Shown here: positions 11,020-18,709 of the stretch, one piece after another
Position numbering within the stretch: position 1 is the stretch's first letter
Layout: every line of letters starts with the position of its first letter
Virus record (IMG/VR): IMGVR_UViG_3300023443_000433
Coordinates: 1 to 23,058 of that record
From: a virus
Strand: one strand, 5' to 3'
Length of the DNA: 23,058 nucleotides
Notes under the pieces: generated by a model
Told to the model about the DNA's origin: nothing
Seen by the model: only the letters and a program-made list of their open reading frames with translations
Databases searched by the model: none
Translations under genes and position numbers: made by a program

Positions 11020-12123
11020 TTATATCGGTTCGTCATCAAGATTTATACCCACCGTTAATGGTGCTTCTTCATCACCAAAATTATTGAACGTCGCATTAAT
11101 ATCACGAAACGCAACATCAGGTTCAAGATTAAAGCCTTGATCAGCACTTATGACATCAGGACGTTGCCAATCATAGACATGAACATAGAACGCTGTATTA
11201 TATTCACCTGCACCGTGACCGGTTGAAACCGTGACATATGTTAATGCAGTGTCTTCATCTTCGAACTGAAACCCGTATAACACCCTCAACAACGCCTTGT
11301 AAATCTCATCATACGCAGCTTGCTGTGCATCATTACCCGCAATGTCATCTTTTGTCGGGATAAAAACCACAGTTGAAAAATTATTCAGATTGGTTTGTTT
11401 CTGGAAATTCTGTGCAGCGAATGCACCGATTGCATCATTGCTGGTGTTTCGATCCTTGGAAACAGTCACGTCAGTCATGATGACGAATAAAGCATATTCA
11501 TTTTTGGCTTGCTTGTTGTATAGGTCTTTTGCACGTTCAAAATCAGCAGCACCAAATATGCGCAATAGGCTGACAGCACCAAAGCCTTGAATGACACCTG
11601 TTGGTAATGACGGTACACCAGTCACAACAAAGGTGAATGTGTCAACATCAGGCACTGTGGCAATCGTTTGATCACCTAAAATCCCGGCTGACCTTGGTTC
11701 ATCCAACAAACCTGTACCAAGCGCGGGAACAACAGTTTCACCAGTAGCAAACGCAATTTCAAAGAACTTACGATTAGGAATAGCAACGATGTCATGTGTA
11801 CCATCCCAAACATTACCGAAACCTGAAAGTGTCAGTTGTGTTGGATCGGCAAATTGTTGGGGTTCTGTCAAATCATGTTCCTGATCAGTCTCAAACCGAA
11901 CAGTACCATCACCATTATCAATCACACTGACCAACAAATTTGAAAAAACACCAGCTGTTACGACAATCTGATTACTGACGATCAACCCATGAGCAATAGA
12001 CGACACTGTGACAGTTGATCCCAACGCTGTTGCAGTCCCGGCAATAGCTGTGCTGAAACGGCTGCTGACAGATGGTAGGAACTTCTGCAAATGAAAAACA
12101 ACATCGTTTGGTGTCAGGCTCAT
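11020..12123 (-). CDS. Tail terminator (Mu gp37-type) with a large beta-rich insertion
   Basis: A 367-residue protein, about twice the size usual for Mu gp37-type tail terminators, which cap the tail tube and bind the head. The N-terminus (SLTPNDVVFHLQKFLPSVSS) and the part from about residue 186 onward fit this role: LRIFGAADFERAK, then VVFIPTKDD and YDEIYKALLRVLYGFQF (family pattern: l...i...llGw.p). The C-terminal PFYVHVYDW-type strand is followed by an acidic end. Residues about 31-185 look like an insertion of two related modules: the first with VTVSSIAHGLIVSNQIVVTAG, the second starting near RFETDQEHDLTEPQQF and running through VWDGTHDIVAIPNRKFFEI. The latter resembles the modules in baseplate J. 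ATG overlaps the neck gene stop. Confidence 0.72.
   Translation of the reverse strand: MSLTPNDVVFHLQKFLPSVSSRFSTAIAGTATALGSTVTVSSIAHGLIVSNQIVVTAGVFSNLLVSVIDNGDGTVRFETDQEHDLTEPQQFADPTQLTLSGFGNVWDGTHDIVAIPNRKFFEIAFATGETVVPALGTGLLDEPRSAGILGDQTIATVPDVDTFTFVVTGVPSLPTGVIQGFGAVSLLRIFGAADFERAKDLYNKQAKNEYALFVIMTDVTVSKDRNTSNDAIGAFAAQNFQKQTNLNNFSTVVFIPTKDDIAGNDAQQAAYDEIYKALLRVLYGFQFEDEDTALTYVTVSTGHGAGEYNTAFYVHVYDWQRPDVISADQGFNLEPDVAFRDINATFNNFGDEEAPLTVGINLDDEPI
11569..12033 (-). repeat. Inserted beta modules within the tail terminator
   Basis: Residues about 31-185 of the terminator. Features shared with the baseplate J modules include an alternating Thr/Val start (GSTVTVSSIAHGL), a DxxHDL-like segment, a WDGTHDIVAIPNRKFFEIAF strand pair equivalent to YNGTFTITVV..FTYTI, and a TFTFVVTG-PSLPTGVI end. 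Similarity is at the level of pattern and hydrophobic spacing only; boundaries are approximate. Confidence 0.5.
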
Positions 12124-12557: not shown

Positions 12558-12916
12558 CCTTTTGCTGCCTCACCTTCACCACGAACACGACAAAATAATT
12601 CAAGTTTAAGATCACGTTCACAGCAATTCAAATCACTCAAAATGTCATATCGTTTACCCTTGATCAATAGCCAATCTTCTTGACTGATACCAGCTATGAA
12701 GTTGAAACAGATTTTATGCGTTGGTGTTTCATCAAGACCAACATCATCAAATGTTGCTTTACCTTTGGGTGTTATGACAAGTGCTTTAACGGCTGCGTGC
12801 TTAGTCACAAATGATTGTTCAGGGTTCGACTTACCGAACGTAGCACCCGTGTTTGTGCGCGTCTGAATATCGATCAGTTGACCGTATTTATTCAAATTTC
12901 GTTCGAACAATCCCAT
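12554..12916 (-). CDS. Head closure / head-tail joining protein
   Basis: A 120-residue beta-rich protein between adaptor and gp10-like neck genes. The C-terminal half fits head closure proteins of the SPP1 gp16/Phage_H_T_join type: HKICFNFIAGISQEDWLLIKG, then GKRYDILSDLNCCERDLKL and ELFCRVRGEGEA (family pattern: g..y.I.s......n..l.l.c...g). Such proteins form the ring under the adaptor that holds DNA in after packaging. Two adjacent cysteines (DLNCCERD) plus FCR are unusual for a phage structural protein but may not be functional. It starts in a TAATG overlap with the adaptor and ends in an ATGA overlap with the next gene. Confidence 0.78.
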   Translation of the reverse strand: MGLFERNLNKYGQLIDIQTRTNTGATFGKSNPEQSFVTKHAAVKALVITPKGKATFDDVGLDETPTHKICFNFIAGISQEDWLLIKGKRYDILSDLNCCERDLKLELFCRVRGEGEAAKG

Positions 12917-13326
12917 TAGTTCACCTGAAACGGACTGACTGAACCCGTTGACCCAATCGAATGAAAACCAATAAGCTGTTTATCGAATTCAGCAAGACAT
13001 CCACCTGACATCGTATTTGCCATCTGTCCAAATGGTGTACCCTTTACACCTTCACCGAACTTGAAACCATATGTTGCTTTACCACCACAGGGGTCACTTT
13101 CAGATACCAATGATAACGTATTTTCAGTGACGGCTGCAAAATGTGCAGATAGATAGATATGAATTTGCGTCAAACAGTCGTCTGACAAATTACATTCTTC
13201 TAAAGCAAGCTGATCAACGACGCATTTTGCAGCAGCAATCGCCGCAGTGATTTGGTCGCTGGTCAAAGTTGTTTCCGTAGGTAGAATTTTACGAACGTCT
13301 GATTCTGTTGCCGGTGTAAAAGCCAT
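12916..13326 (-). CDS. Head-tail adaptor protein (DUF4054-like)
   Basis: A 136-residue protein of the adaptor type that docks under the portal. Family-like features are the N-terminal FTPATESDVRKILPTETTLT, then a helix ITAAIAAAKCVVDQL with the DDCLTQIHIYLSAHFAAVTE helix. The C-terminal YGFKFGEGVKGTPFGQMANT and MSGGCLAEFDKQ are also typical (family pattern: G.....t.yGqqa..ld..g.l....). Its first gene after the accessory cassette marks the start of the connector module. Its ATG is in a TAATG overlap with the cassette's last gene, and the four connector genes follow with no spacing. Confidence 0.8.
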   Translation of the reverse strand: MAFTPATESDVRKILPTETTLTSDQITAAIAAAKCVVDQLALEECNLSDDCLTQIHIYLSAHFAAVTENTLSLVSESDPCGGKATYGFKFGEGVKGTPFGQMANTMSGGCLAEFDKQLIGFHSIGSTGSVSPFQVN

Positions 13327-13760
13327 TATCTCAACTCCGCTGGAATGCGATATGATGCAATTGTTATTTTAACACCAACATCATTTGTTTTTGCGTTAAC
13401 CCATTTTCCTATGGGAATAATCCAATTCAAACCAATCGCTATAAAATTTGAAGCCCGTATCATCTGAGGATTAACAATTGAGGGATTTGCAACCAATGAA
13501 TCAGCTTCATCAGCTTCATAAATTTCAATGTCAGCAGGATCGACATTACTGACATTTTTATCAGTGCTGACAATGATGTCAGTAATGACAATGAATTTGT
13601 CTTGTTCAGGTGTTAGAAAATTGACGGCTGTATCTACAACTAATAATTCTCTTTCAAAAGGTCTGCTGTAATCAAGCGGTGAAACAACAAGTTGACCAAA
13701 ACGCGTGACTCTAGCACTGTTATCTGACTTTGAATCTTGAATTACCGCAGGTACGGGCAT
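13326..13760 (-). CDS. Accessory virion protein, paralogue 3 (unknown function)
   Basis: A 144-residue protein not assigned to a known family. I use ATG 13760 because it is part of a TAATG overlap with the preceding gene and follows AGAGG at ten bases; an in-frame upstream ATG (13790) would extend 30 bases into that gene. The N-terminus (PVPAVIQDSKSDNSARVTR, then FGQLVVSP) matches the shared motif of its two neighbours: VIQDxxSxNSA-V...(N/G)-L. The rest (DKFIVITDIIVSTDKNVS, DIEIYEADEADS, NWIIPIGKWVNAKTND) is beta-rich with no membrane segment. Position between capsid and connector genes suggests capsid decoration or head-fibre role; that is inference. Confidence 0.82.
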   Translation of the reverse strand: MPVPAVIQDSKSDNSARVTRFGQLVVSPLDYSRPFERELLVVDTAVNFLTPEQDKFIVITDIIVSTDKNVSNVDPADIEIYEADEADSLVANPSIVNPQMIRASNFIAIGLNWIIPIGKWVNAKTNDVGVKITIASYRIPAELR

Positions 13761-14293
13761 TATTCGGCAACCTCTAAAGATATGACACAAGTAATCAAAC
13801 CGGTTGCTTCTACACGTTCAAAAGCAATTGCTTGACCTTGCGGGATGATAATATTGCTAGTGGTTTTGAGTTGTTGAAGTTTATCAGCCGGGTTGCAATC
13901 TTCAAAAAATAATGTACCACCATCTGCCAATCCAGTTATATCAACACCATCTTGAATAATTGCAGTAGGACCTGCCGTACTACCTAATTTACGGCTGGTT
14001 ACCTCTGAGTCTGAACCACCTACAGCAACACCAGTTACCCGTTTGTAAAGTAGTTCAGTAATAACTGAACTCTTTATACGAACATCAGTAATAAACAAAT
14101 CCTTGGTACCTGTGTTTTTCAAATAAAAAAATTTATCATTTGCAGCAGTTGGTGTTACTTCAAAGAAAACAGACCATTGTCGGCCTTCTGTATTGGCATG
14201 TTTATCTTCAGCTTGGACAATAGAGAATGTTAGTAATCTATTTTCAAGGTCAACTTCTACAACTCTACCATCTGGTCCTTTAATTTTGGTCAT
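13760..14293 (-). CDS. Accessory virion protein, paralogue 2 (unknown function)
   Basis: A 177-residue protein with no recognised catalytic motif. The N-terminus (TKIKGPDGRVVEVDLENRLL) carries a version of the cassette motif: (D)GR...-V...NRL. The middle has FYLKNTGTKDLFITDVRIKS, a beta-sandwich-like pattern seen in phage decoration and fibre proteins. Later there is TLFFEDCNPADKLQ and NIIIPQGQAIAFERVEATG, also typical beta strands with a Pro/Gly turn. ATG overlaps the stop of paralogue 1 (ATGA), and its stop overlaps paralogue 3 (TAATG). No signal peptide or membrane segment is visible. Confidence 0.85.
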   Translation of the reverse strand: MTKIKGPDGRVVEVDLENRLLTFSIVQAEDKHANTEGRQWSVFFEVTPTAANDKFFYLKNTGTKDLFITDVRIKSSVITELLYKRVTGVAVGGSDSEVTSRKLGSTAGPTAIIQDGVDITGLADGGTLFFEDCNPADKLQQLKTTSNIIIPQGQAIAFERVEATGLITCVISLEVAE

Positions 14294-14883
14294 TTAGGTA
14301 ACTCCCGGAAAAAAACAACCTGAACTGCCGTATTTTGATTAGTATTTCCCACAGGTGGGGTAAATGCCACAGCAAATGATGTACCGGGAGGAACAACCAC
14401 AGGGCCAGCCGGAAAAGTTCTAAATAATGCACCTTCAGGAATTAGCGTAATCGGCGCATTCAAACCATCTGTAATAGTTTTACCTTCACCCCCTATTTTG
14501 ACTATTGCAGTTAATGGTTTAGGACTACCGATATTTAAATTGATACCTACTGAATCAACACCGTCGTCAACCAAAGTACCCGAAGTTGCACCGGTATTAA
14601 ATTGATTGAATGAATCACCAGAACCGCCTGTAGATTTTCCATAAGTGGCAGTGATACTTTCAACGACCCAGGGAACGGTATCAGTATTTTTTGCGAACAA
14701 AATCCATGATATACTATCACTTGTTAGGTTTATACTTCCCGTAGTGAAAATATATGTATCACCATTTAGTGACGATTCAATGACGGCAGCTTTAGAAATA
14801 GCATCCGTGTGAAGACGATTATTTGCACCAACCTTGGCACTATTACCTGATCGACCATCTTGAATTACAGTATCACCGCTCAT
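14290..14883 (-). CDS. Accessory virion protein, paralogue 1 (unknown function)
   Basis: A 197-residue protein. The N-terminus (SGDTVIQDGRSGNSAKVGAN, then NRLHT) is the clearest version of the cassette motif. An N-terminal DG-SG..AKV-.-NRLH-type segment is common in phage virion proteins of unclear role found near capsid genes; that is recollection, not a search. The rest is beta-rich and Gly/Thr/Ser-rich: TDSISWILFAK-type, VVESITATYGKSTGGSGDSF, and ALFRTFPAGPVVVPPGTSF, ending AVQVVFFRELPK. Overlaps by ATGA with both neighbours indicate a co-translated block. No cysteine is present. Confidence 0.85.
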   Translation of the reverse strand: MSGDTVIQDGRSGNSAKVGANNRLHTDAISKAAVIESSLNGDTYIFTTGSINLTSDSISWILFAKNTDTVPWVVESITATYGKSTGGSGDSFNQFNTGATSGTLVDDGVDSVGINLNIGSPKPLTAIVKIGGEGKTITDGLNAPITLIPEGALFRTFPAGPVVVPPGTSFAVAFTPPVGNTNQNTAVQVVFFRELPK

Positions 14884-15344
14884 ACGTCGCTCCTGTCAAT
14901 ATCAGTCTCATTTGCTTCTTCAAATCTGTCATTTAATAAACGTAATTCTTGATCTATTGATTTCAAAGTGACAATCAATGAATTTCTGAATTCTTGTGTA
15001 CTAATCAAATTTGATTCTCGTTCAGTAATGCTTATATCAGAAGCTGATGCAGGCGAGAACCCATGAACAGCCATAGGAATGACATTAACTAAACCATCTA
15101 CATTAGGGCAAAATGCCCACGCCCCTAAATCACCTTCGTTGTTACGAAGTGGATCACCATTTCTCTTTACTATATTAAATGCATCGTGATCATTTTCAGG
15201 CTGATCTGGTTGAACAGCCAAAAAAACATCACACACACCTGTATTTTCAACAAGTATCTGAACACCTACTTGAACCTCTGAAACGGCATATAAGTCGATC
15301 CAAGTATTTTTAGGTAATTTAATATTTGTTAATGTATTTGCCAT
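14880..15344 (-). CDS. Accessory virion protein at the head of the cassette (unknown function)
   Basis: A 154-residue protein without a recognised family. The N-terminal two-thirds are beta-rich (NTLTNIKLPKNTWIDLYAVS, QVGVQILVENTGVCDVFLAV), resembling the NTG-strand pattern of paralogue 2. The C-terminal 45 residues are helical and probably coiled (QEFRNSLIVTLKSIDQELRL, LNDRFEEANETDID). A beta domain followed by a coil would suit a trimeric fibre or spike on the capsid, but this is inference. It lacks the VIQDG motif of the next three genes. No clear ribosome site lies near ATG 15344; the nearest purine-rich run is inside the hairpin upstream. The stop overlaps paralogue 1 (ATGA). Confidence 0.8.
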   Translation of the reverse strand: MANTLTNIKLPKNTWIDLYAVSEVQVGVQILVENTGVCDVFLAVQPDQPENDHDAFNIVKRNGDPLRNNEGDLGAWAFCPNVDGLVNVIPMAVHGFSPASASDISITERESNLISTQEFRNSLIVTLKSIDQELRLLNDRFEEANETDIDRSDV

Positions 15345-15386: not shown

Positions 15387-15707
15387 TTATTTGCTTGCTG
15401 CTTTAAGGTCAGCTTCAGCCTTCTTCAAAGCCTCATCTTTGACCTTCAGGTCAGCTTCAGCTTTCTTCAGGGCTTCGTCTTTGGCCTTCAGGTCAGTTTG
15501 CGCCTGTTCCAAAGCTTTAGAATCAGCATCAGAAACATCGACTGATTTCATATCTTTGATGGGTTTAACGAAACCACGTGCTTCAAGCTTTCCAGCTTGT
15601 GTTTTGGTTAAGGTCAATTGAGTACCGACTTCCATTTCTTTTTCACCTGATGTGAAATAAAGACCGGATTTAACGACCTGATGAGTTGCGCGTTTAGGTG
15701 CAGCCAT
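15387..15707 (-). CDS. Small protein with heptad-rich repeat tail, downstream of major capsid
   Basis: About 106 residues from ATG 15707, chosen because GGAG lies nine bases upstream; an earlier ATG at 15713 is too close to the same site. The N-terminal half (KRATHQVVKSGLYFTSGEKE, EVGTQLTLTKTQAGKLEARGFVK) has the pattern of a small phage domain often found near capsid genes: G-.y..G..i.Lt...A..L...G.v..i. The C-terminal half is a Lys/Ala/Glu/Asp-rich coil made of 14-residue units (DLKAKDEALKKAEA, then DLKVKDEALKKAEA, then DLKAASK). The gene follows the major capsid gene within 15 bases. It could be a capsid accessory or fibre protein. Function not recognised. Confidence 0.8.
   Translation of the reverse strand: MAAPKRATHQVVKSGLYFTSGEKEMEVGTQLTLTKTQAGKLEARGFVKPIKDMKSVDVSDADSKALEQAQTDLKAKDEALKKAEADLKVKDEALKKAEADLKAASK
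15390..15494 (-). repeat. 42-bp tandem repeat encoding a 14-residue coiled-coil unit
   Basis: Two and a half copies of a unit encoding DLK(A/V)KDEALKKAEA. The unit is two heptads long, so the copy number sets coil length without breaking frame or heptad phase. The DNA copies differ at several third positions (for example AAGGCC versus AAGGTC), so they are not freshly duplicated. Confidence 0.75.
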
Positions 15708-15721
15708 TGTCATTTACTCCC

Positions 15722-16792
15722 TTAACCAAGGTCTTGTGCAAACGATGCACATTTCTGGTTGGTGAAATCAGTGCGAACACTGAAACCAATAGCACCCCAT
15801 ACAGCAAATTCGAAATTCGAATTGAAGACGGGACGCGGCATAGCAACAGTGTTCAGACCCATACCAACGACCGGACGGACAGATTGACCATCAAGCGGGA
15901 AGGCCATCATTTCATTACCTGAAAGTTTAGACGATGATTTGATTTCCTTAACACCCATCAGACCTGACAAACGTTGCAGGATTTTGTTTTCACTGCTGGC
16001 AAACTCAGAACTGTTGCGTTCGAGATTCGACATGATTTGACGACTGATATAATAAACAGCCTCACGTTCACAGTTATTCGTGATGAACAGAACGTCACGA
16101 ACCTGCTTGAAGGCAGCTTCAATCTGTTCAAAGGTCTTGGTCGTATCCGTGAAATCAAAGTTGATACCGGAAACACCAATGTTAATTTGTGCAACACGAC
16201 TGTCAGCACGCATACCCTGCCAATCAAGACCATCGACCTTGATGAAGTTCCCGTCATTGTCTTTATGACCATCAAGGAAGTTGTCAGCCAGACGACGACG
16301 CAAAGCAGCAACAGATTCACGTTGATCATCAATCAGAGCATCGAACCCTTCAGAATTCTGAGCATTCCATTCACGCCAATTACGGAAGAAACCAGTATCA
16401 TGAACAGGAATGATGGTCCCATCAATACTGAATTCAACCTGATCCATCTTGATGCCGATTTGACCAGTCATAGATGTCTGCGTCTGACCCGCATCGGATG
16501 CCCGACGAAACTTGTCAACCAGCTTGCCGATATTAACTGAACGTGACATTGGTAATAGATCGTTCAGAAATGCATCACCATCATCAGAACGAAAACGTTC
16601 AACGGTGACATTATCGAATTCCTGAAATACGTCCTGTGGAATAATTCCGGTATTTGCGACAAGTCCTGCACGACGTTGAAGATCAGCAAAAGATTCTTCG
16701 TGGATGTTGAAAGCGTTGCGAACAGCGCGAACTTCACCCCATTGAGCAGCAGCAGCACGGCTGTTACCTACAATAGACTGTTGAAATAACAT
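15722..16792 (-). CDS. Major capsid protein
   Basis: A 356-residue protein strongly resembling a group of phage major capsid proteins that I recall as DUF6260; I am not certain of that label. Recognisable blocks are SFADLQRRAGLVANTGIIPQ, DVFQEFDNVTVERFRSDDGD, AFLNDLLPMSRSVNIGKLVD and the central QTSMTGQIGIKMDQVEFSIDG, followed by TIIPVHDTGFFRNWREWN. The EGFDALIDDQRESVAALRRRL helix is an HK97-fold spine-like segment, and FAVWGAIGFSVRTDF near the C-terminus is typical of the final strand. Presence between scaffold/decoration and connector genes supports the role. A strong, doubled ribosome site (AGGAAGGA) and a well-spaced ATG fit very high expression. No propeptide cut site was identified. Confidence 0.93.
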   Translation of the reverse strand: MLFQQSIVGNSRAAAAQWGEVRAVRNAFNIHEESFADLQRRAGLVANTGIIPQDVFQEFDNVTVERFRSDDGDAFLNDLLPMSRSVNIGKLVDKFRRASDAGQTQTSMTGQIGIKMDQVEFSIDGTIIPVHDTGFFRNWREWNAQNSEGFDALIDDQRESVAALRRRLADNFLDGHKDNDGNFIKVDGLDWQGMRADSRVAQINIGVSGINFDFTDTTKTFEQIEAAFKQVRDVLFITNNCEREAVYYISRQIMSNLERNSSEFASSENKILQRLSGLMGVKEIKSSSKLSGNEMMAFPLDGQSVRPVVGMGLNTVAMPRPVFNSNFEFAVWGAIGFSVRTDFTNQKCASFAQDLG

Positions 16793-16800
16793 TTTTCGGT

Positions 16801-16809
16801 TCCTTCCTT
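16801..16809 (-). promoter_or_regulatory. Strong ribosome binding site of the major capsid gene
   Basis: AAGGAAGGA, nine to seventeen bases before ATG 16792, immediately after the decoration gene stop. It is the most purine-rich initiation site in the window and fits the most abundant virion protein. Confidence 0.7.
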
Positions 16810-17275
16810 ACGCGATGCGTACACGCACAAGCGTGGTTGCAACTGTGGTTATGATTTCATCGGCAAAAGCAAGGACTTGCTCACTGGTGGCACCGACTGT
16901 TGCCGGGGTTACGGCAATCTTGAGAAGGCCAGCACCATTTAATGACAAGGGCTTACCCCGTTCACTGATTGTCTGACCGGTGGCAACAAGAATGTTCATA
17001 AATTCACCTGAACGTGGTTTGATTGCAACCATATTTTCATTGATGGTCCAAGCATCGTCAACGCTTTTAGTACGCTGTTGATCCTTATCAGCAACAAGAA
17101 GTTCCTGACCAAACAACGTCGCAGCACTTGCGTTAACTTGCAAACCAGTTGCAACAGATTCAACCACAGTGCCGGGCGCAATAGCTGCCAGTGCAACACC
17201 TTCAACATTTAAAGGCTTGTGGTTAGCATCGTCAGCAGGACCGACGAAGATTGTGCGTTTTCCAATAACACTCAT
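16808..17275 (-). CDS. Probable capsid decoration / cement protein
   Basis: A 155-residue protein placed between protease/scaffold and major capsid genes, the usual slot for a decoration (cement) protein. The N-terminus (SVIGKRTIFVGPADDANHKP) is followed by small beta strands (GVALAAIAPGTVVESVATGL), the segment LFGQELLVADKDQQRTKSVD, and a C-terminal strand set (TTVATTLVRVRIA). The GVALAAI-PGT pattern and the ADxD-x-R segment occur in virion proteins of this type. It has no cysteine and no membrane segment. Ribosome site AAGGGA precedes ATG 17275. Role is assigned by position and fold pattern only; a head stabilisation protein of another type is equally possible. Confidence 0.78.
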   Translation of the reverse strand: MSVIGKRTIFVGPADDANHKPLNVEGVALAAIAPGTVVESVATGLQVNASAATLFGQELLVADKDQQRTKSVDDAWTINENMVAIKPRSGEFMNILVATGQTISERGKPLSLNGAGLLKIAVTPATVGATSEQVLAFADEIITTVATTLVRVRIA

Positions 17276-17287
17276 TTTTCTGATCCC

Positions 17288-17803
17288 TTATTCAGGCATG
17301 TCAGCAGGGGCAGTATTGCCATCTGCATCATTGTTGATATTAAACGGTAAACCGTGACCGGAACCGCAACTTGCAGCCATGTTCTGAAGCTTGTCCAGTG
17401 GTATGGCATTTAAAGTATCTTCATCAAGATCAGGATACTTTTTCGAATTGGTGATGACCTTGACCGCATCAGATTTTTCAGCTTCCGAATTGGCACAAAG
17501 CTGATCCTGCAACGGCTTGATTGCATCAGCAACGGCTGTTGCAATAGCATCAGTAATTTCTTCGTTGACAACAGCCGGTTTACCCTTGTTGGGGTCATCA
17601 GCATTAACAGCCGGTTTACCCTTGTTAGGGTCATCAGCATTAACAGCAGCAGCCGGTTTACCCTTGTTGGGGTCATCAGCATTAACAGCAGCAGCCGGTT
17701 TTTCAGTCATGAGCTTGTTATACGCTGCAAGCAATGCGTCTTCATCCATACCTTTGGTATCGATTCCGACCGCATTCAACGCAGCACGAATTTTCTTTTC
17801 CAT
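17288..17803 (-). CDS. Predicted nested scaffold protein (in-frame internal start)
   Basis: An in-frame ATG at 17803 (residue 303 of the protease/scaffold protein) is preceded by GAGG with eight bases of spacing, as good as any site in the window. Starting here would give 171 residues: a helical N-terminus (EKKIRAALNAVGIDTKGMDE), the repeat linker and the helical C-terminus, without the protease domain. Lambda encodes its scaffold (Nu3) as an in-frame nested product of protease gene C, so this organisation has a known precedent. The break point coincides with the end of the DUF2213-like domain. Confidence 0.6.
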   Translation of the reverse strand: MEKKIRAALNAVGIDTKGMDEDALLAAYNKLMTEKPAAAVNADDPNKGKPAAAVNADDPNKGKPAVNADDPNKGKPAVVNEEITDAIATAVADAIKPLQDQLCANSEAEKSDAVKVITNSKKYPDLDEDTLNAIPLDKLQNMAASCGSGHGLPFNINNDADGNTAPADMPE

Positions 17804-18709
17804 AGCGTCTACCTCTTTCGAGTTGGTTTTAGGAATAAACGTGACTTTTCGCTCAACTGGTAGCGGAATGCCCGTTATGGTTACGCGCCCGGAATCATCC
17901 GAACTAAACGGTACTGAGAACAGACCGGATTCTGTGTGAAAAATAACATGATCGTCAAATAATTCTTCAATCCAAACAAAGCCTGTAATTGCAGAACGTT
18001 CAAAAGCATCATGAATTGCTTGGTGAAGTTCTGAAAATGACCGACCTTCTTGATTAACACGACTATCTTTCACGTCAAGATTAACTGTTTCAACATCGAT
18101 TTTTTCACCGTTGCTATTCACAGCCATACCGACACCCTGTGATGGTTGTGCAGCACCAATACTATCAAGCAAAATTGCATCATGATCAAAGACCATGTTG
18201 CGTGCAATCATGTTGAATTCATGACCGTCTTCATTAGTTTGTGGTTCAGTGAGTTCTTCGATTTCAAGAAAAATGCCAGTTGATGTATGTATTGGTCGTG
18301 GGCTTTTTGACGTTTCGACTTCATTGATACGATCAAGTAAACGACGACCCTTTTCACTTTTCAGTGCTTCCTGAACATTAATGATCTTATCGACCTTAAC
18401 CCGATTGCCGATCTTTTCAGCATTGTCATTAAATGCCCCTGCATGAAAATTGTGAATTGCTTCAGGATCATTGGCAGAAACAAATTGACCGTTTGCATTC
18501 ACAGGGTGTTCAATAGGTGCAAGCGTTCGGTTCAATCCTTCAAACGACGCATCAATTTCAGCAGCAGGATATAGAATGCCGTTCATAACGACGTTATCAG
18601 GTAGCGTGAAGGATGAAACAATGATGTGTTCAACACCATCAATATTTGTGCGTGTGACAGCCTTTGGATTAACCAACGATGTACAGCGTAAGAATTTTCT
18701 TTTAAGCAT
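17288..18709 (-). CDS. Prohead protease/scaffold protein, DUF2213-like
   Basis: A 473-residue protein resembling the DUF2213 family, which occupies the protease/scaffold position upstream of the capsid genes. The N-terminal about 290 residues hold the folded domain: GVEHIIVSSFTLPDNVVMNG, NRTLAPIEHPVNANGQFVSA, and HTSTGIFLEIEELTE followed by ARNMVFDHDAILLDSIGAAQ, where a conserved DHDAIL-type segment is typical. The HPVNA and FDHDAI histidines are candidate active-site residues; that is inference. After residue about 302, a helical scaffold-like part begins (MEKKIRAALNAVGI), then a tandem-repeat linker (about 336-379), then a helical C-terminus (ITDAIATAVADAIKPLQDQL). A nested start within the gene is described separately. 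GAGG precedes ATG 18709. Confidence 0.82.
   Translation of the reverse strand: MLKRKFLRCTSLVNPKAVTRTNIDGVEHIIVSSFTLPDNVVMNGILYPAAEIDASFEGLNRTLAPIEHPVNANGQFVSANDPEAIHNFHAGAFNDNAEKIGNRVKVDKIINVQEALKSEKGRRLLDRINEVETSKSPRPIHTSTGIFLEIEELTEPQTNEDGHEFNMIARNMVFDHDAILLDSIGAAQPSQGVGMAVNSNGEKIDVETVNLDVKDSRVNQEGRSFSELHQAIHDAFERSAITGFVWIEELFDDHVIFHTESGLFSVPFSSDDSGRVTITGIPLPVERKVTFIPKTNSKEVDAMEKKIRAALNAVGIDTKGMDEDALLAAYNKLMTEKPAAAVNADDPNKGKPAAAVNADDPNKGKPAVNADDPNKGKPAVVNEEITDAIATAVADAIKPLQDQLCANSEAEKSDAVKVITNSKKYPDLDEDTLNAIPLDKLQNMAASCGSGHGLPFNINNDADGNTAPADMPE
17573..17703 (-). repeat. 36/42-bp tandem repeat array in the scaffold linker
   Basis: Units begin at 17573, 17609 and 17651 on the plus strand, with a partial unit at 17693-17703. 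The first is 36 bp, the next two 42 bp; the extra 6 bp add Ala-Ala. Copies are nearly identical at the DNA level (differences include TTGGGG versus TTAGGG), implying recent duplication or gene conversion. Each encodes VNADDPNKGKPA with or without AA. All units are multiples of three, so frame is kept. Confidence 0.92.
17812..17815 (-). promoter_or_regulatory. Ribosome binding site of the nested scaffold start
   Basis: GAGG on the minus strand, eight bases before ATG 17803, inside the protease/scaffold gene. The surrounding residues (NSKEVDA) form a likely interdomain linker, so the codons are free to encode a site. Confidence 0.6.

Follow-up and report, generated by a model that had tools for sequence, protein, structure and literature searches.

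A recurrent four-gene set beside the major capsid gene of an uncultivated contractile-tailed phage is a candidate virion appendage

Phage heads often bear accessory surface proteins whose genes go unrecognised. According to the available part of its description (PMC10172136), the phiCrAss001 capsid carries two kinds of head fibre, a trimer and a dimer of single proteins, and the fibre proteins gp21 and gp29 dock in pockets of the capsid hexons by N-terminal residues 1-38 and 1-58. Agrobacterium phage 7-7-1 has a contractile tail and bears head fibres that touch the flagellum, and the accessible portion of its report (PMC12796354) leaves the fibre gene open. Here we describe a four-gene cassette (positions 13326-15344, minus strand) in an uncultivated virus record of 23,058 bases (IMG/VR record IMGVR_UViG_3300023443_000433), the whole of which we call the window; L-numbers label the viral contigs and loci compared with it. 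We propose, with a probability of about 0.5, that the four genes encode one accessory virion appendage, docked on the particle by an anchor domain and formed by three proteins, A, B and C, that would assemble on a peptide at the end of a coil.

The four genes are coupled by overlapping stop and start codons and lie between the major capsid protein (MCP) gene with its small companion gene and a gene resembling those for head-tail adaptors. Their boundaries, overlaps and placement between capsid and connector genes agree with a first-pass annotation of this sequence. All are on the minus strand. The first encodes an anchor-coil protein of 154 residues (14880-15344) with a predicted cupin-like beta domain, a linker and a long C-terminal helix. 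Its anchor domain (residues 1-91; 15072-15344) occurs in relatives alone (~92 residues) or fused to large bodies, and its C-terminal peptide, ELRLLNDRFEEANETDIDRSDV (14883-14948), is common to coil proteins of other phage types. Protein A (197 residues; 14290-14883) comprises an N-terminal arm of the type DG-x-G-x-A-x-V...NRL and a predicted jelly roll (residues 42-193). It is followed by protein B (177 residues; 13760-14293) and by protein C (144 residues; 13326-13760), the last gene of the set, which starts at the ATG at 13760; a listed longer open reading frame (ORF), 13326-13790, begins at an upstream TTG.

The N-terminal motif, which the first-pass annotation took to be shared by all three proteins, is clear in A (VIQDGRSGNSAKVGANNRL; residues 6-24, 14812-14868), recognisable in C (VIQDSKSDNSARVTRFGQL; residues 5-24, 13689-13748) and only partial, in a degenerate form, in B (GPDGRVVEVDLENRL; residues 6-20, 14234-14278). 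When the first ~38 residues of the window proteins were compared against 5000 shuffles, none was as good as the A-C similarity and 24 were as good as A-B; the B-C similarity was undetectable from the window alone (4821 of 5000 as good). Profiles carried the comparison further. With families of 34 (A), 24 (B) and 29 (C) sequences, hhalign, whose P-values are those of single comparisons, aligned A with B over 171 columns (P 6e-27; earlier 7e-18 with 14 and 15 sequences), A with C over 120 columns (P 1.4e-6, probability 90.5) and B with C over 119 columns (P 1.7e-5, probability 78.8). A smaller C family of 12 sequences had matched A only over the first 40 residues (P 1e-4) and B unconvincingly (P 0.03). 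By these profile comparisons, the three consecutive genes are paralogues beyond their N-termini, as had been proposed, with A and B related along their whole length and C the most distant. The accompanying idea of bodies that vary needs correcting, since they do not do so freely: within families, the bodies average 42, 51 and 56% pairwise identity (A, B and C), little different from the 49, 49 and 61% of their first 30 residues, as calculated from 12 sequences per family after removal of two divergent A rows and three B rows.

A scan with the C profile yielded 31 viral contigs, some of them near-duplicates (L075-L077, L067/L068, L083/L084). In every one of them C is preceded by a gene of A or B type, and 21 have a complete A-B-C: 18 of the 28 loci L062-L089, together with L029, L035 and L030, the last counted as complete though its A is cut by the contig end. 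In the rest, C is preceded by two A-type genes in four contigs (L075-L077, L089), by A and then a gene of no assigned type in two (L083, L084), and by just one A/B-type gene in four (L080, L081, L085, L088). In L055, A and a second A-type gene precede the contig end. Copy number at the locus does vary among related phages, a test that the first-pass annotation had suggested.

This gene set is found in several types of phage. Marker searches on the 28 loci detected a DUF6260 MCP in two (L062, L074), a P22-type coat or hub in eleven (L063-L065, L070, L071, L073, L075-L077, L082, L087) and a T7-like terminase or portal in six (L066-L069, L072, L080). The P22-like relatives have hub phrog_578, coat phrog_283 and ejection protein phrog_598, and the T7-like ones portal phrog_332 and MCP phrog_212; another MCP belongs to phrog_371. 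L078 and L083 have an MCP of phrog_9953, L079 matches several MCP families more weakly, phrog_10 foremost, and L085 has a portal of phrog_145. L081, L086, L088 and L089 stay outside the types assigned by markers and families. The set occurs, then, with six capsid PHROG families (DUF6260/phrog_771, phrog_283, phrog_212, phrog_371, phrog_9953 and phrog_10), counted as separate families although all may have the HK97 fold. Because of this variety, the suggestion that the shared N-terminus is a capsid-docking peptide becomes less likely, and the several MCP families would argue against any lattice-specific contact. The peptide that ends the coil protein is the more constant partner, and docking of the arms on the coil protein would therefore be the simpler idea. 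Trees of the A, B and C genes disagree on some rows (L049, L035). In a tree of the joined proteins from 11 contigs, rows cluster by phage type (the four labels need 4 changes, a number as low as which was reached by 3 of 200 shuffles), and the four DUF6260 rows come together with support of only 77/82. Since that support is weak, we claim no number of transfers; exchange between types is evident from the presence of the set in each, not from dated events.

Two details concern members with a P22-type hub. A protein of ~112 residues follows C in L031 (6217-6555) and occupies the same place in L063-L065, L070 and L071; in all these members it resembles a fifth gene of the set. In the window, C is followed directly by the gene of adaptor type. 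In L064 (2792-4196), the hub gene is apparently split into ORFs of 335 and 141 residues, by a frameshift or an assembly error.

The coil proteins of contractile-tailed and P22-like phages, when aligned, have no common N-terminal part and a common end, LLNxRxEEAxET...D. A profile of 6 coil proteins found 6 further ones preceding A (L043, L046-L049, L055). The exact pattern LN.R.EE..ET is present in 11 of these 12 (L029 has EEAFDT), and the shorter LN.R.EE occurs in 22 of 1115 ORFs of the loci compared, each of them being such a coil protein or the second copy of a place already counted. Among loci L062-L089, the peptide profile matches 17 of 28. Ten of the other eleven were analysed with leave-one-out profiles that include other diverged members (L082 and L086 were held out together; L084 is outside this test), and the ORF just upstream of the set ranked first among 20-40 ORFs in all ten, with E-values from 5e-8 to 3.3.

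What precedes the peptide changes with the phage. It is the cupin-like anchor in the window, L028 and L035, a sequence of the type EYLNRFLHDLFIRxGG beside the P22-like hub (L031, L033, L048), and a different start beside another hub (L029, L043). The N-terminal domain of T7-like coil proteins is weakly similar to the anchor (hhalign P 2e-4). In L049, L055, L073, L075 and L089, the peptide forms a protein of 50-76 residues that lacks an N-terminal domain.

A constant core with a changing N-terminal part is what would be expected if the peptide were the socket for A-B-C and the N-terminal part the plug into the virion. We therefore envision that the anchor-coil protein docks on the particle via its N-terminal beta domain. 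Gene order alone suggests the place, which in the window would most likely be the head or head-neck surface. Docking by an N-terminal part would have a precedent, by analogy, in the fibres of phiCrAss001 as presented in the available text (PMC10172136). The long helix would lead outward to the C-terminal peptide, on which A, B and C would assemble, with their conserved N-terminal arms as the likely contact; we favour the peptide over the capsid as the partner of these arms because the capsid families differ. The three proteins would present their jelly rolls outward, probably binding host or environmental glycans or proteins, and adhesion to the host or to surrounding glycans is our preferred reading of such an exposed role. 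The set would move between phage types by a change of anchor, with a core of coil peptide, C and one or two genes of A/B type staying together. A broader proposal, which we advance only tentatively and consider doubtful at present, is that this is a single mobile "plug and socket" device in contractile-tailed, P22-like and T7-like phages, wherein jelly-roll paralogues, usually three including C, form a hetero-oligomer on a widely common C-terminal peptide, and each phage adopts the set by fusing or pairing that peptide with its own docking domain.

The surroundings of the cassette are consistent with an accessory role. In the window, the MCP gene (15722-16792, minus strand; DUF6260 E 2.6e-99, also phrog_771) is followed by a companion gene for a 108-residue protein with a coil (15387-15713, minus strand), which forms the upstream border of the interval. 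The downstream border is the adaptor-like gene (12916-13326, minus strand; weak matches to DUF4054, E 0.2, and phrog_302, E 0.0025), and a homologue of this gene is the border in 20 relatives. These 20 are the members of a set of 26 viral contigs with a DUF6260-type MCP that reach the adaptor. The first-pass annotation regarded the step from MCP to adaptor as a conserved transition, a view contradicted by interval lengths of 266-3741 nt among the 20; in relatives with the same MCP, this part of the head module is a slot for variable cargo. Eight slots are empty (266-473 nt), holding just the small gene in the place equivalent to 15387-15713, and six of these eight contigs make up two near-identical groups (L008/L009; L011/L015/L016/L022). 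The other 12 are filled (1307-3741 nt), and the anchor domain is present in 11 of them, ten by profile and L019 as a 92-residue ORF, with L007 lacking it. It occurs either as a stand-alone protein of 92-93 residues before other genes or fused within proteins of 305-817 residues; in L006 and L003 it is fused to a phrog_1645 body ("head and packaging, virion structural protein"). Because none of the 26 MCP contigs carries the coil peptide at the threshold used, the coil with A-B-C is one of several slot cargos.

Named phages have comparable arrangements. Proteins of 82-108 residues related to phrog_4770 sit downstream of the capsid gene in those examined, among them pYD21-A, whose capsid gene is unannotated. 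In Iodobacter phage PhiPLPE, two anchor proteins and a GDSL acylhydrolase are encoded in the slot (L036 7634-13315), as are gp34 and gp35, both of which the record marks as virion components confirmed by mass spectrometry (MS). Vibrio phage 1.013.O has an MCP 46% identical over 85% of the query and five annotated genes, filling ~4.7 kb, between the small gene and the adaptor.

Pseudomonas phage tf has two small proteins that are anchor-like by fold, near an SGNH hydrolase gene (genes assigned by length); the anchor profile does not match them by sequence, and the arrangement is a lead, by fold only, to a slot comparable to that of PhiPLPE. For the same phage, the available part of a report describes a virion band of a size matching gp63 (PMC3517423). 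Large proteins are encoded at L007 10175-11740, in the slot, and at L089 6188-7591, as a neighbour. Their starts resemble laminin-G type lectin domains, and the L007 protein has no Pfam match.

Empty slots in 8 of 20 relatives would also suit genes that are cargo or morons, encoding internal head proteins or proteins that act in the cell, off the virion surface, and this explanation gains from the fact that we place the set on the virion by inference. It has against it the predicted jelly-roll and cupin-like beta domains, the conserved order with C last, the structural genes that neighbour the set in classifiable contexts, and the fusion of the anchor to phrog_1645 bodies; we consider it quite improbable. 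Of the first-pass proposal of capsid decorations or head fibres, the accessory virion role is supported by the location of the slot in the head module, the jelly-roll prediction, the phrog_1645 bodies and the MS note for PhiPLPE, which fall short of demonstrating either structure.

AlphaFold2 predicts a beta sandwich for A at residues 42-193 (mean predicted local distance difference test [pLDDT] 83.7; 77-97 by block). Residues 1-40, which hold the common motif as a loose arm, reach a pLDDT of 49-58. This low confidence fits an arm that would become ordered on a partner, and a shallow alignment would give low confidence too. By Z, the first rows for A are the trimeric cement protein of Helicobacter phage KHP40 (7dou; Z 8.5, rmsd 3.3, 114 aligned), the coat protein of a plant virus (8.3) and Bacillus endospore appendages (8.0); these three count as tied, so that KHP40 is level with unrelated beta sandwiches. 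KHP30 cement (7.6) and the cyanophage Pam1 capsid chain 7eel_H (7.3, rmsd 3.0, 110 aligned) are also listed. Foldseek ranked virus jelly-roll coats for A, at low TM-scores. In BFVD, the first match is A0A516M9T5, a public viral protein of 194 residues (29% identity, E 1e-19, TM 0.78) that may well belong to the A family. The third match comes from a named phage, Vibrio virus vB_VspP_SBP1 (16% identity, TM 0.56), and is a neighbour by fold. The proteins guessed by length for the Pantoea LIMEzero and Citrobacter CVT22 matches lack the N-terminal motif. The "beta-rich" bodies of the first-pass annotation are thus supported for A by a model and for B by homology to A.

Its description of the fourth, upstream protein as a beta domain with a coil is matched by the model of the anchor-coil protein, in which a compact beta domain (~1-92) and a loose linker precede a helix at 106-149 (mean pLDDT 82). 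The first row for the beta domain is PirA (3x0t; Z 8.9, 84 aligned), followed by many cupin-type double-stranded beta helices (Z 7-8), and "cupin-like" is used here because of shape alone. Fold likeness at such Z levels, in predicted models, shows no function. Residues 1-88 match positions 1-91 of the 94 in the phrog_4770 profile, a whole-domain match (E 8.3e-16). The coil part has a weak match to the terminase small subunit family phrog_141 (E 0.003), which we put down to coil similarity and reject as an identity.

The likeness to KHP40 cement, together with those to KHP30 and the Pam1 chain and the position of the set right after the MCP in the window, raises the main structural rival to adhesion: A, B and C might be cement proteins that lock the lattice of the capsid, possibly in a pseudo-threefold A:B:C trimer, and the anchor-coil protein a linker. 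However, the same genes accompany six capsid families (all of which may have the HK97 fold), 8 of the 20 relatives that share this MCP have an empty slot, and the window already has a phrog_766 head-decoration gene (16808-17275, minus strand). We therefore regard cementing as improbable.

The P22 tail needle gene 26 sits after the hub gene and before the ejection genes. P22-like relatives have the coil and A-B-C in this same position, directly after the hub (phrog_578), and C of L029 weakly matches phrog_2126, "tail fiber protein" (E 0.016). The set could accordingly be a tail-associated receptor-binding tip, with the coil protein as a needle- or fibre-like stalk and A-B-C as its knob. However, the window, L028, L035 and L049 carry the set immediately ahead of the adaptor gene, and the T7-like loci L066-L069 carry it between terminase and portal. 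The Pfam and PHROG matches of the two podovirus coil proteins searched (L029 and L033) include no needle family, an outcome of little weight either way. Overall, a tail tip seems unlikely to us, if somewhat less so than cement.

Several observations weigh against the appendage that we prefer. The positions of the set in the P22-like phages and in L066-L069 make a tail location possible there. The set is not rigid, as 10 of the 31 contigs hold C without a complete A-B-C, B-type genes occur without C in L050-L052, and L058, which has no peptide match, encodes three tandem motif proteins, two of them recognised by the A profile. The separate peptide proteins of 50-76 residues show that anchor and peptide need not be one chain. 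Leave-one-out E-values exceed 0.1 in three of the ten diverged loci (0.14, 0.62 and 3.3), though the protein ranked first in each, and the core peptide profile alone gave no significant score in the ten diverged coil proteins (best E 4.5, ranks 1-28). The fold matches reach only the level of common beta sandwiches (Z <9, low Foldseek TM-scores), gp34 and gp35 of PhiPLPE are not A, B or C, and we found no virion proteomics for a phage carrying any of the three.

Neither window A, B and C nor L029 A and C, the L028 coil C-terminus and L087 C gave any tblastn match in 50,697 phage records. Two pattern-based scans of bacterial genomes with C and B alignments found no relative among the pattern-holding sequences that such scans reach. 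PDB sequence searches with A, B, C and the anchor returned nothing credible, and an A profile of 6 sequences matched no KHP30/KHP40-type cement chain there up to E 10. For window A, B and C, Pfam and PHROGs gave only matches at chance level and no family; for ten proteins of A, B and C type, diverged or tandem, PHROGs gave no family apart from two weak matches (E 0.0075 and 0.052); and no head-fibre family is among the Pfam or PHROG matches of A, B, C or the coil protein at E up to 1. The titles and abstract openings of the literature searched contain no description of the gene set.

Elsewhere on the minus strand, Pfam and PHROG family matches identify the late genes of a contractile-tailed phage, including those for the large terminase, portal, a head morphogenesis protein, a phrog_760 protein, tail sheath, tape measure, a baseplate-wedge-like protein, and head-closure- and tail-completion-like genes. 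The phrog_760 protein (17288-18709) has tandem repeats of the NADDPNKGKPA type. Two stretches of the baseplate-wedge-like protein (1266-2909) match phrog_9998, and its residues 143-237 match phrog_5838 (virion structural protein); by eye the protein contains a repeated beta module, with a similar-looking stretch in the protein at 11020-12123.

A, B and C, three proteins to which Pfam and PHROGs assigned no family, keep together in uncultivated viruses of differing capsid families, and it is the attachment part that changes. Should they form a surface device, an LLNxRxEEAxET tail followed by DG-x-G-x-A-x-V genes would serve as a testable search rule for virion appendages in viral dark matter, and the peptide and its partners would constitute a natural peptide-to-protein docking pair.

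Compared with known systems, the anchor matches phrog_4770, a family of unrecorded function, and is lengthened here by the helix and the common peptide. The phiCrAss001 fibres, as described in the available text and likened here by their N-terminal docking, are oligomers of single proteins, whereas the present locus has paralogues and a coil protein. The likeness to Agrobacterium phage 7-7-1, judged from the accessible portion of its report, consists of a contractile tail and, for the window, a candidate head appendage in place of head fibres. The predicted jelly roll of A resembles the trimeric cement of KHP40 and KHP30 (Z 8.5 and 7.6) with no sequence match, near the level of a common fold, and A-B-C differs from that cement in not being tied to one capsid family. 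The needle position of P22 gp26, after the hub and before the ejection genes, recurs in the P22-like relatives and not in the window. Finally, gp31-gp36 of PhiPLPE occupy the same slot after the MCP, with two anchor-type proteins and two virion proteins noted by MS, and differ in their GDSL acylhydrolase and other bodies, with no A-B-C seen by eye in the translations.

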